Assembly (NCBI RefSeq): GCF_014385435.1
Contig: NZ_JACSUD010000004.1
Span: 62,001 to 126,000, forward strand
Reading direction: 5' to 3'
From: Alloprevotella sp. Lung230
Lineage (GTDB): Bacteria > Bacteroidota > Bacteroidia > Bacteroidales > Bacteroidaceae
Length of the DNA: 64,000 bases
Part shown: one piece after another, positions 20,171 through 33,427 of the stretch
Layout of the letters: every line of letters starts with the position of its first letter
Position numbering within the stretch: the first letter of the stretch is position 1
Program-made: the position numbers and the translations under genes
Notes under the pieces: generated by a model
Database searches by the model: none
What the model saw: the letters and a program-made list of their open reading frames with translations, nothing else
Told to the model about the DNA's origin: nothing

Positions 20171-20201
20171 TTGTTCTAAGATAGCAAACGTTGTATCTTT
20201 G
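20171..20201 (+). promoter_or_regulatory. Promoter of the 41-aa ORF transcription unit
   Basis: TTG at 20171-20173 and TATCTTTG at 20194-20201 with exactly 20 bases between. Transcription would begin near 20208, about 240 bases before the small ORF. The 19978-20170 stretch holds nothing else I recognise. Confidence 0.75.
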
Positions 20202-20207
20202 CACCAG

Positions 20208-20449
20208 AAAACAAAACGATAGCACTCGCTTCGATAGTCGTCACCTCGACACTCAAGCGCGCTTCGTGTTCCAATATGGATTTAAGGTAAAAATTAAGGA
20301 TAATATCCGCTGCGTGATGCAGCCGATTGATTAAGGTAAAAGATTAAGGATTAGATGTTGACTGTCGAGAGACAGACAAACTGAACACAGAGGCCGGCAA
20401 AACGGCCGGTTCTCTTATTGTTGAACACAAAAACAAAAAAGAACCAATT
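20208..20449 (+). promoter_or_regulatory. Long structured leader of the 41-aa ORF
   Basis: The leader carries two direct repeats of about 20 bp (TTAAGGTAAA followed by ATTAAGGAT, near 20282 and 20333) with CTGCGTGATGCAG able to fold between them. A strong hairpin, GGCCG-GCAAAA-CGGCC, follows at about 20390-20409. An A-rich stretch precedes the ORF. The arrangement resembles a regulatory leader or a structured RNA, but I do not recognise a known family. Confidence 0.5.
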
Positions 20450-20575
20450 ATGATGGATAAAAAAACTATTGACGAACTGATGTATCGCATTGCTCGGTAC
20501 CGTTCGATGGGCAACGGCAGTATGTGCCAAATGCTCAACAGCCAACTTCGTGCACTCCGTTCACAAGTCGGTTAA
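20450..20575 (+). CDS. Small 41-residue protein of unknown function
   Basis: The ORF begins MMDKKTIDELMYRIARYR and ends LRALRSQVG, a basic and probably helical peptide without membrane segment or signal. Support for it being real is contextual: a consensus promoter (20171), an A-rich ribosome-binding region immediately before two ATGs (20450 and 20453), and an intrinsic terminator at 20664. No other coding frame exists in the unit. It lies just beyond the terminator of the str operon and points toward it. I do not recognise the family and assign no function. Confidence 0.6.
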   Translation: MMDKKTIDELMYRIARYRSMGNGSMCQMLNSQLRALRSQVG

Positions 20576-20663
20576 GAAAACTCTCTTCAACCCTCGCACT
20601 TCCCAATTCGGGGAAGTCGAGACAGAGGTTGAACAGAAATGTTGTTACAACCCCTTTATTGAT

Positions 20664-20691
20664 GAAGCTCCACATCGGGCTTCTTTTTTTT
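20664..20691 (+). terminator. Terminator of the 41-aa ORF unit
   Basis: The stem GAAGCTC / GGGCTTC (one G-U pair) with a six-base loop is followed by eight Ts, 88 bases after the small ORF. Confidence 0.75.
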
Positions 20692-20816: not shown

Positions 20817-21122
20817 CTACACCTTGATTTCTACTTCAACACCGCAAGGCAATTCGAGCTTCATGAGCGCATCGATGGTCTTGGGGTTGGAGCTGTAGAT
20901 GTCGATGAGACGCTTGTAGGTCGAAACCTCAAACTGCTCACGACTCTTCTTGTTGACGAAGGTAGAGCGGTTCACCGTGATGATGCGCTTACGAGTGGGG
21001 AGGGGGATGGGACCGCTCACGATGGCACCCGTTGCTTTGACATTCTTCACGATTTTTTCGGCCGACTTCTCAACGAGAGTGTGGTCGTAGCTCTTGAGCT
21101 TGATACGAATTTTTTGACTCAT
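20817..21122 (-). CDS. rpsJ: 30S ribosomal protein S10
   Basis: A 101-residue S10, a 30S head protein that also serves as NusE in antitermination. Start [17 protein letters not shown] and the segment [17 protein letters not shown] are diagnostic. It lies 98 bases downstream of fusA. In many Bacteroidales S10 is followed directly by rplC and the rest of the S10 cluster; here a strong terminator follows, so the cluster must lie elsewhere. Confidence 0.98.
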
Positions 21123-21220
21123 TGTTTTGTAGTGTTTGACACCATCGAAAGGTAGGCGGGATAAGAGTCGTTCGCTATCCCACTCCTTTCGGCGGCAATG
21201 GATTGGATTTTGTTTCGGAA

Positions 21221-23341
21221 TTACTTGATGAGGTCTACGCGGCCCTTGATTTCTTCAAGCACAGCCTTAGCGATACCGCTCGAAACGGGCGAGTGGTGAT
21301 CGTACTGCATCGAAGAAGTGGCACGACCGGAAGTGATGGTACGGAGCGCTGTCACGTAGCCAAACATTTCTGCGAGAGGCACAGTGGCCTTCACGATGCG
21401 GGCACCGGAACGGCTGTTTTCCATACCTTCCACCTGACCACGGCGCTTGTTGAGGTCACCGATGACGTCACCCATGTTTTCTTCGGGAGTTACCACTTCG
21501 AGCTTCATCATGGGCTCCATCAAGACAGGACCTGCTTGTGCGCAAGCGTTCTTATAGGCTTGGAGGGCAGCGATTTCGAAGGAGAGCTGATCGGAGTCAA
21601 CGGGGTGGAAAGAACCATCGAGGAGTTCCACCTTGAGGCTGTCGAGAGGGAAGCCACCGAGCACACCACTCTTCATAGCGTTTTCAAAGCCCTTCTGTAC
21701 AGAGGGGATGAATTCCTTAGGAATGTTACCACCAGTCACCTTGTTCACGAACTGGAGACCACCTTCCTTGAAGTCTTCATCAACAGGACCTACGTTCACG
21801 ATGATGTCTGCGAACTTACCGCGACCACCAGATTGCTTCTTGTAGACTTCGCGGAGGTTGACGGTCTTGGTGATGGCTTCCTTGTAGTTCACCTGAGGCT
21901 TACCTTGGTTGCACTCCACCTTAAACTCACGACGCAGACGGTCGATGATGATGTCGAGGTGAAGTTCACCCATACCCGAAATCACGGTCTGACCGCTTTG
22001 TTCGTCGGTCTTCACGGTGAAGGTGGGGTCTTCTTCGGCGAGCTTGGCCAAACCATTGGAGAGCTTGTCGAGGTCCTTCTGCGTCTTGGGCTCAACCGCA
22101 ATACCAATCACGGGATCGGGGAAGTCCATAGATTCGAGCACGATGGGAGCGCCTTCTTCAGCGAGCGTGTCGCCCGTGCGGATGTCCTTGAAACCGACAC
22201 CGGCACCGATGTCACCGGCAGAAATCACGTCTACGGGGTTTTGCTTGGAAGAGTGCATCTGGAAGAGACGCGAAACGCGTTCCTTCTTGCCGGAGCGAAC
22301 GTTGTAGACGTAAGAACCAGCTTCCACCTTACCGGAGTAAACGCGGAAGAAGGTGAGTCGACCTACGTAGGGGTCGGTAGCAATCTTAAAGGCGAGAGCA
22401 GCCGTCTTTTCGTCTTCCGAAGGCTTGCGCGTTTCGACTTCGCCGGTTTCGGGGTTCGTACCTTCGATAGCGGGTGTGTCGAGGGGAGAGGGCAGGAACA
22501 TGCAGACGTAGTCGAGCAGCGTCTGTACGCCCTTGTTCTTGAACGAAGAACCGCAAGTCATGGGCACGATGTCGAGAGCGAGCGTACCCTTGCGGATAGC
22601 AGCCACGATTTCCTCTTCGCTGAGCGAGTTGGGGTCGTCGAAGAACTTCTCCATGAGGGTTTCGTCTTGCTCAGCAGCGAGTTCAATCATCTTCTGACGC
22701 CATTCGTTGCATTCGTCCACGAGTTCGGCGGGGATGTCTTCTACATCATATTCCGCACCCATCGTTTCGTCGTGCCACAGGATGGCCTTCATCTTGATGA
22801 GGTCTACGATACCCCTGAAGTTTTCTTCAGCACCGATGGGCACAGAAATCACACAGGGAGTAGCACCGAGGACGTCCTTCATCTGGCGCACCACTTCGAA
22901 GAAGTTGGCACCGGAACGGTCCATCTTGTTGACATAACCGATACGGGGGACGTTGTACTTGTCGGCCTGACGCCAAACGGTTTCCGATTGAGGTTCAACA
23001 CCACCCACGGCACAGTAGGTTGCCACAGCACCGTCGAGCACACGGAGCGAACGTTCTACTTCTGCGGTGAAGTCAACGTGTCCCGGAGTGTCAATGAGGT
23101 TGAACTTATACTGTGTGCCGTTGTACTTCCAGAAGGCAGTCGTAGCAGCGGAGGTAATGGTGATACCGCGCTCCTGCTCTTGTTCCATCCAGTCCATGGT
23201 AGCACCACCTTCGTGTACTTCACCAATTTTGTGGGTCTTACCCGTGTAGAAGAGGATACGTTCGGAAGTGGTGGTCTTACCGGCATCGATGTGGGCCATG
23301 ATACCGATATTACGCGTCAAATGGAGATCTTGCTTTGCCAT
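21221..23341 (-). CDS. fusA: Elongation factor G
   Basis: A 706-residue EF-G, the translocase GTPase. G1 is [13 protein letters not shown] (GX4GKT variant), G3 DTPGHVDF and G4 NKMD, all near the N-terminus, followed by domains II-V ending [19 protein letters not shown]. Codons are strongly biased, as expected for a highly expressed gene. It sits 26 bases after rpsG. A long open frame on the opposite strand is a by-product of this codon bias. Confidence 0.98.
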
Positions 23342-23367
23342 TTTGTTATGCTATCTTGGGGGTTGGA

Positions 23368-23844
23368 TTAGAAACGGAAGTGTGCAAAGGCACGGTTAGC
23401 TTCTGCCATACGGTGCATTTCTTCCTTACGCTTGAAGGCAGCACCCTGTTCGTTGTAGGCGTCCATGATTTCGGCAGCGAGCTTGTCGGCCATCGTCTTG
23501 CCACCGCGCTTGCGAGCATAGGCAATCATGTTCTTCATCGAAACAGACTCCTTACGATCGGGGCGGATTTCTGTGGGCACTTGGAAAGTGGCACCACCGA
23601 TACGACGGCTCTTCACTTCCACTTGGGGAGTAATCTTGTCGAGGGCAATTTTCCAGATTTCGAGCGCACTCTTTTCTTCGCTCTGCATCTTCTCACCTAC
23701 GATTTCGAGGCTCTTGTAGAAAATCTCGTAGGAGATGTTCTTCTTGCCGTCATACATGAGGTGATTTACGAACTTGGAGACCTTCTGGTCGCCGTAGACG
23801 GGATCCGGGAGGATCACACGCTTCTTTGGTTTTGCTTTACGCAT
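23368..23844 (-). CDS. rpsG: 30S ribosomal protein S7
   Basis: A 158-residue S7, the primary 16S rRNA 3'-domain binder and classical operon autoregulator. Diagnostic segments are [34 protein letters not shown] and the C-terminal [17 protein letters not shown]. The gap to rpsL upstream is 220 bases, unusually long for this pair, and shows no ORF of its own; it could contain an S7 regulatory site, but I could not define a structure. Confidence 0.98.
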
Positions 23845-24064
23845 GGGTGATAAGGGGTTGGGTTGTGTTAGGGCTGCATCATGTCTTCAGCAGAGCCACG
23901 ATAGTGGTGCTTACTCAACCTTATGCAAACCAATCTTTGATTTGATAGACGAAGCATTGGGAAAGGGCTGGTGGGCTAAGGGCTACCCGCTCAGTAAGAG
24001 CGAGTCTTCATCCGCCATCACTTGGGGATTACTCTCTTACCACAGCGCTCATTTCCCGATCTTC

Positions 24065-24448
24065 TTATTTCTTGGCGGCCTTAGGACGCTTAGCGCCATA
24101 CTTCGAACGGCGCTGTGTGCGGTTGGCCACGCCGGCGGTGTCGAGCGTACCGCGAACGATGTGATAGCGTACACCGGGGAGGTCCTTCACACGACCACCG
24201 CGAACGAGCACGATGCTGTGTTCCTGGAGGTTGTGGCCTTCACCGGGGATGTAGGAGTTGACTTCCTTAGAGTTGGTGAGACGCACACGAGCCACTTTAC
24301 GCATGGCGGAGTTAGGCTTTTTGGGGGTGGTTGTGTACACGCGAACACAAACACCACGACGCTGAGGGCAGTTGTCGAGAGCAGGCGACTTTGACTTGTC
24401 GGCAGCTACTGAACGACCCTTACGAACGAGTTGTTGAATAGTTGGCAT
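24065..24448 (-). CDS. rpsL: 30S ribosomal protein S12
   Basis: A 127-residue S12, part of the decoding centre. The start [12 protein letters not shown] and conserved loop [16 protein letters not shown] are visible. The streptomycin-related lysines in the PKKPNS loop and near GVRYHIVRG appear unaltered (lysine in the former), so the sequence gives no sign of classical streptomycin resistance. It is first in the operon, with a promoter at 24532-24562 and an AT-rich leader of about 80 nt. Confidence 0.98.
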
Positions 24449-33340: not shown

Positions 33341-33396
33341 AAGAGTGATTGTTTTGAGGGGTTGATGTATTATTGTTTTTTTCTTGTTTTCTGGTG

Positions 33397-33427
33397 CAAA
33401 GATACGGCGCATCTTGCACCCCGCCAA
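33397..33427 (-). promoter_or_regulatory. Promoter of dps
   Basis: TATCTTTG (33397-33404) with TTG (33425-33427) 20 bases upstream on the minus strand, giving a leader of about 50 nt. Confidence 0.75.

Follow-up and report, generated by a model that had tools for sequence, protein, structure and literature searches.

A conserved Bacteroidales small-protein gene whose long leader in Alloprevotella is complementary to, and may be controlled by, a BTnc060-type small RNA

Among the described systems closest to the locus reported here is FopS/GibS with RbpB from Bacteroides thetaiotaomicron, in which RbpB, a protein that prefers single-stranded RNA, binds the single-stranded R1 region of FopS and has its top CLIP motif within the FopS sRNAs (PMC11697453). 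Another is MasB, which corresponds to BTnc201, a Cur-activated sRNA of about 100 nt that acts on the 5' region of its target mRNA BT_1675, approximately 40 nt inside the coding sequence (PMC10994844). The consensus site of Cur (BT4338) has been given as wwwTATGTTnTAnAACATAwww (PMC6989115). A further Bacteroides sRNA, BTnc060, is listed in Rfam (RF04184); neither a target nor an antisense relation was found for it in the literature examined, and no mention of BTnc060 or of a sponge was found in the literature on FopS.

Here we describe a transcription unit at positions 20171-20691 of the window, the whole 64,000-nt stretch of Alloprevotella DNA that was analysed. On balance we favour the reading, drawn from sequence comparison, that this unit yields a small-protein mRNA and that a BTnc060-type sRNA controls it by way of the leader. 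The leader resembles FopS in that both are complementary to this sRNA, and site 1 of the leader and the FopS seed region have GATTTAAGGT in common. FopS, however, has one seed region, whereas the leader is part of an mRNA, contains two site-plus-hairpin modules and does not match the FopS model (RF04319), which had no match anywhere within the unit. The likeness to MasB lies in a Cur-activated sRNA acting on the 5' region of an mRNA, with the difference that the partner here would be BTnc060 and its putative sites lie in the leader; the possibility that the sRNA is MasB was rejected, given its match to BTnc060, MasB being BTnc201. As for BTnc060 itself, its 45-nt core is also present in the Alloprevotella copies (E 1.6e-10 and 1.7e-6), which fall under its gathering score (76 and 56 versus 228.9 bits).

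The original prediction of a complete stand-alone transcription unit held up on direct reading of the sequence, with promoter, leader, ORF and terminator all found (Table 1). The promoter combines a TTG with a Bacteroidota-type -7 box, a class outside the scope of the E. coli-type promoter scan, and a TAnnTTTGCA box also lies upstream of most homologues of the gene. From this arrangement the transcript would start near 20207, leaving about 240-245 nt of leader before the ATG at 20450.

Table 1. Features of the small-protein unit (window coordinates).
Feature	Start	End	Strand	Basis and remarks
Bacteroidota-type promoter	20171	20201	+	direct reading: TTG 20171-20173, -7 box TATCTTTG 20194-20201
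Leader RNA, about 243 nt	20207	20449	+	putative transcript start; folds at -63.4 kcal/mol, z -3.5; no Rfam match
sRNA-complementary site 1, TTTAAGGTAAAAATTAAGGATAA	20281	20303	+	13-nt exact block against G064 sRNA; largely unpaired in centroid fold
Hairpin after site 1, GCTGC-GTGAT-GCAGC	20309	20323	+	fold prediction; counterpart in G064
sRNA-complementary site 2, TTAAGGTAAAAGATTAAGGAT	20331	20351	+	11- and 8-nt exact blocks against G064 sRNA; unpaired in centroid fold
Hairpin after site 2, CTGTC-GAGA-GACAG	20362	20375	+	fold prediction; G064 reads CTGCC-GTGA-GGCAG, with one stem pair altered on both sides
GC-rich hairpin with AAAACG loop, 5' of the A-rich start region	20390	20414	+	resembles AAACG-loop hairpin of the homologues' short leaders
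41-aa small-protein gene, stop included	20450	20575	+	homologues; dN/dS below 1; two-helix hairpin model
Intrinsic terminator	20664	20691	+	7-pair stem 20664-20683, then T run

The 41-residue ORF proved to be a genuine gene. A single-sequence query identified homologues in 14 of 61 genomes, and an alignment query in 29 of 58 Alloprevotella genomes (15 of 19 among the near-complete ones). Homologues were also found in other families of Bacteroidales. In named genomes, 112 homologous loci were found, chiefly in Bacteroides, Phocaeicola, Alloprevotella and Barnesiella; judged by these matches, the small protein is widespread in gut and oral Bacteroidales. The homologues share the conserved core YRIxRYxxMGNGxMCQxL within ORFs of 40-55 aa, which places the window's ORF in an MGNGxMCQ family. 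Conservation of the peptide, a check proposed with the original prediction, was evident as an excess of synonymous change: Nei-Gojobori dN/dS values ranged from 0.05 to 0.22 in 10 of 11 species pairs, indicating purifying selection on the reading frame, and none of the homologues listed contained an internal stop. The eleventh pair, the window's own genome (G000) and Alloprevotella sp. OH1205 (G064, locus L061), gave 0.51 on the basis of only 18 changes. A homologue sharing 89% identity with the small protein of B. fragilis was also observed in a GenBank entry labelled as a bacteriophage from human faeces (MT835747.1, 9420-9557), where it may represent bacterial DNA or cargo.

No significant match to the small protein was obtained in Pfam, NCBIfam or PDB. 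PHROG 4105, itself without a function, matched weakly (E 0.0017), and assignment to a known family was therefore rejected. By these searches, MGNGxMCQ is an undescribed small-protein family of Bacteroidales, absent from the protein-family libraries searched. The AlphaFold2 model (mean pLDDT 88) consists of two helices, residues 2-20 and 23-40, and predicts a two-helix hairpin with a G-N-G turn and the MCQ motif. It superposes on UVR-motif helical hairpins, such as the UvrB C-terminus and McsA, with TM values of 0.89-0.94 over 38-40 residues, but the Foldseek E-values exceed 2, which denotes a generic helical hairpin only, and none of 42 small-protein members scanned against Pfam gave a UVR match. 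To our knowledge, the conserved MGNGxMCQ is no UVR signature. At most, the modelled fold suggests a helical-hairpin adaptor or binding protein.

The leader is predicted to fold stably, its structure being more stable than those of all 200 dinucleotide shuffles. The two TTAAGGTAAAA..ATTAAGGAT repeats noticed previously are present, lie 50 nt apart and are 74% identical over 31 nt; with up to 3 mismatches, the pattern TTAAGGTAAAANATTAAGGAT matched once in the window and never in shuffles. Sites 1 and 2 end approximately 146 and 98 nt 5' of the start codon, respectively. A GGCCG hairpin had also been described, and it was found in the leader, with a longer pairing than first given (CCGGC-AAAACG-GCCGG). 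The leader had been proposed for comparison with RNA family models; against the riboswitch and leader families of Rfam 15, it gave no match at gathering score or at low E-value, and a riboswitch or other Rfam leader was rejected on this ground.

Upstream of the homologues, the leader repeat did not recur with 2 mismatches allowed, and the idea of a genus-wide element fixed in place was discarded; its gapped form led to an sRNA. Searching 58 genomes of the genus with GGTAAAAN{2,9}TWAGGATAA returned 12 matches (0 in controls), of which 2 were small-protein leaders and 7 lay antisense in one short stand-alone unit. This unit comprises a TAnnTTTGCA promoter, GTTATCCTAAAnACAATCTTTTTACCTTAAAGAACTAATACCTATTG and a terminator, in that order. 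The sRNA is about 95 nt long and contains 5' GUUAUCC..CAAUCUUUUUACCUUAAAGAACUAAUACC; across 15 aligned copies, the 45 nt of the 5' region are near-invariant, and the terminator stem has pairs that change on both sides. A covariance model detected it in 26 of the 58 genomes and, once per genome (E about 1e-12), in all five Bacteroides/Phocaeicola genomes tested. The Bacteroides copies L233, L235 and L236 match BTnc060 above the gathering score. In L220 and L221 (genomes G021 and G026), BTnc060-type sRNAs were observed that have about 55 inserted nt separating ACCTTAA from CTAATACC and keep both complementary blocks. The 213-nt Rfam model RF04184 begins 5' of the conserved -7 box and takes in the Cur box; its 5' boundary may thus be too long, with about 120 nt of the 5' part being promoter and not RNA.

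Both leader repeats show complementarity to this sRNA within its near-invariant 5' region. The window's own genome, Alloprevotella sp. OH1205, G025, G075 and G077 have leaders of 230-250 nt; all four of these long-leader relatives carry such sites in the leader and encode the sRNA. Pairing of each genome's own sRNA with its own leader was calculated at -31.2 (G025), -28.1 (G075) and -27.1 kcal/mol (G077), energies that no more than 3 of 1000 leader shuffles and 7 of 1000 sRNA shuffles equalled; being closely related, these three genomes do not provide independent leaders, and the G077 leader has fewer complementary blocks. The own duplex of Alloprevotella sp. OH1205 (-24.1 kcal/mol) was marginal, with 42 of 1000 leader and 30 of 1000 sRNA shuffles as good. 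In the case of the window's leader against the OH1205 sRNA, the best single duplex reached -23.3 kcal/mol, again marginal (19 and 45 of 1000 shuffles as good). The exact blocks of 13, 11 and 8 nt between these two RNAs gave a score that was not reached in a set of 1500 random 245-nt window pieces. The complementarity of leader and sRNA core is beyond chance, with the window's genome alone marginal by duplex energy. Pairing remained at shuffle level in the short-leader relatives, no pairing beyond chance was seen between the Bacteroides sRNA and the Bacteroides small-protein leader, and most genomes that encode the sRNA lack a site in the leader of the small-protein gene.

In the window's own genome, a draft assembly of 31 contigs that is 97% complete, the sRNA was not found by the covariance model with either stricter or laxer filters, nor was it found in the window with filters switched off. 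The pattern ATCCN{2,16}TTTTACCTTAA matched there only the two leader sites, in antisense. The sRNA was likewise not found in G005, G033 and G062. Weak model matches in the window's genome (L247 and L258) were rejected as they lack a promoter and the core, and a pattern match in G005 (L272), also without a promoter, is probably due to chance. Another candidate, L201, was rejected as the sRNA because it lies on the opposite strand and is FopS: this gene (L201 1491-1559, contig C2 at about 145 kb; RF04319, 70 bits) lies 5' of nagB and has a promoter and a terminator of its own.

The FopS of this genome pairs with the BTnc060-type sRNA at -28.7 kcal/mol. Since the leader is complementary to the same sRNA, two RNAs of the genome match a partner that was not found there. 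Between the BTnc060 core and the FopS consensus of Rfam, the pairing energy was -26.5 kcal/mol, against a mean of -11.7 and a best value of -20.7 kcal/mol in 300 shuffles. In L233, L234, L235 and L236, near positions 1500-1600 on the minus strand, the BTnc060 core was observed to be complementary to the FopS seed region. These sequence matches suggest that BTnc060 is a sponge or a target of FopS.

Among the homologues, most leaders measure 40-120 nt, and many carry an AAACG-loop hairpin right before the A-rich start region. The long leader is, by this comparison, lineage-specific and not a conserved part of the unit. The OH1205 leader has a matching tandem layout, GGTATAAAGATTTAAGGATAAC plus hairpin followed by GGTTAAAATGATTAAGGATAAC plus hairpin. 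Between this genome and the window's, the ORF is nearly unchanged and the leader has diverged except near ATTAAGGATAA and the hairpin that follows it, whose stem was read directly as CTGTC/GACAG in the window and CTGCC/GGCAG in OH1205.

A perfect ATGTTnTAnAACAT Cur box was identified at most 60 nt 5' of the -7 box in 46 of 63 homologues from Bacteroides and related genera, and 13 more have it with one mismatch; shuffles averaged 4.4 mismatches. At the window promoter, the best site for TATGTTnTAnAACATA has 4 mismatches, and the other Alloprevotella small-protein promoters tested are without a Cur box. At the promoter of the sRNA gene, Bacteroides has this box with a single mismatch and several Alloprevotella have it with 0-2; the four long-leader relatives have no such box there. 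A scan of five Bacteroides genomes with the pattern returned 17 sites, several without a properly spaced promoter, and its use as a regulon finder was rejected. The absence of the Cur box from the Alloprevotella small-protein promoters tested, together with the presence of sRNA-complementary sites, points to an exchange of promoter control for leader control; in this Alloprevotella lineage, control has probably moved from promoter to leader.

The monocistronic mRNA would thus encode a conserved Bacteroidales small protein whose expression is set via the leader. Its tandem modules, each a single-stranded TTAAGGTAAAA..ATTAAGGAT followed by a hairpin, would serve as docking sites for a BTnc060-type sRNA acting in trans. 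Given the distance of both sites from the start codon, pairing would be expected to alter how the leader folds or how stable the mRNA is, and not to cover the start codon directly; in Bacteroides, the small-protein gene and the sRNA gene would instead be addressed through the Cur sites at their promoters. The pairing, its sign and its effect, as well as a cognate sRNA in the window's own genome, are what we infer from these matches. The expectation that so large a leader implies regulation is borne out by repeats complementary to a conserved sRNA and by the stable fold. Confidence in control by the sRNA is limited by its absence from this genome's search results.

An alternative that these observations do not separate from a target is a leader acting as a decoy, in which the tandem sites mimic the R1' seed of FopS (GAUUUAAGGUUAAU) and titrate the anti-FopS sRNA; the mRNA would then affect the sRNA no less than the sRNA affects it. 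The FopS gene in this genome and its predicted duplex with the sRNA, the stretch that FopS shares with site 1, the two copies of the site and its distance from the start codon all favour such a decoy; nevertheless, the failure to find the cognate sRNA in the genome counts against it, and we regard it as unlikely. The repeats might also be bound by an RRM protein, of which RbpB is an example, with the sRNA unneeded. By analogy, the preference of RbpB for single-stranded regions and its top CLIP motif in FopS sRNAs (PMC11697453) agree with leader sites that are largely unpaired and FopS-like. A protein alone would leave unexplained the in-order complementarity to the relatives' sRNA, including the ATTAAGGATAA part that is missing from FopS, which makes this quite unlikely.

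That the sites are a relic, having worked with an sRNA in an ancestor and having no present role since the lineage lost it, would accord with the four genomes in which the sRNA was not found and with the strong divergence of the window's leader from that of OH1205 outside the sites. Yet both sites retain exact complementary blocks of 11-13 nt while the remainder diverged, and the genome keeps a FopS that matches the BTnc060-type sRNA; a relic is very unlikely. The length and stable fold of the leader had also raised the possibility that the unit's product is the RNA, with the ORF incidental or minor. This was not upheld and is now extremely improbable: conservation of the ORF extends across families, at dN/dS values well under 1, and the leaders of homologues vary in length and sequence, the long form occurring in few relatives.

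Beyond control of the small-protein mRNA by the sRNA, a wider picture can be proposed tentatively. Across Bacteroidales, the BTnc060-type sRNA could serve as an antisense partner (sponge) for the FopS/GibS seed, controlled by Cur in Bacteroides, and the small-protein gene could have escaped direct Cur control and joined this network by gaining tandem docking modules in its leader. An antisense relation between BTnc060 and FopS, two Bacteroides sRNAs listed in Rfam, was not found in the literature examined. The small protein, unannotated and widely conserved, joins the candidates of the starvation (Cur) regulon in gut Bacteroides, and the locus offers a testable example of a gene shifting from promoter control to sRNA control. 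Shine-Dalgarno sequences are little used in Bacteroidota, and a leader with two putative docking modules far from the start would be a clean system for studying sRNA action on mRNAs in this phylum.

Additionally, a small exported-protein gene (MKRLGLTL...) with a Cur box was observed in B. cellulosilyticus (L249) and B. xylanisolvens (L251), and about 50 nt of its leader are complementary to BTnc060. The calculated duplexes of the Bacteroides sRNA with this leader reached -46.3 and -41.7 kcal/mol, and none of 300 shuffles was as good. By complementarity, this gene is a second case of a leader matched by a BTnc060-type sRNA.

In the neighbourhood of the small-protein unit, rpsJ (20817-21122, minus strand) adjoins it in convergent orientation. 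The remark that the S10 cluster would be expected at this position holds only in the sense of this convergent neighbour. A motif search of twelve homologous loci found neither rpsJ nor the acyltransferase gene near the small-protein homologues, and synteny with either gene in relatives was rejected. Within the window, rpsL, rpsG, fusA and rpsJ lie together (20817-24448, minus strand); the run stops at rpsJ beside the small-protein unit, and the remainder of the S10 operon is absent after it. The promoter and transcript start of a dps-like gene (ATCTTTGCACCAGAAAACAA; window 33384-33405, minus strand) were found to be identical to those of the small-protein unit over at least 20 nt.
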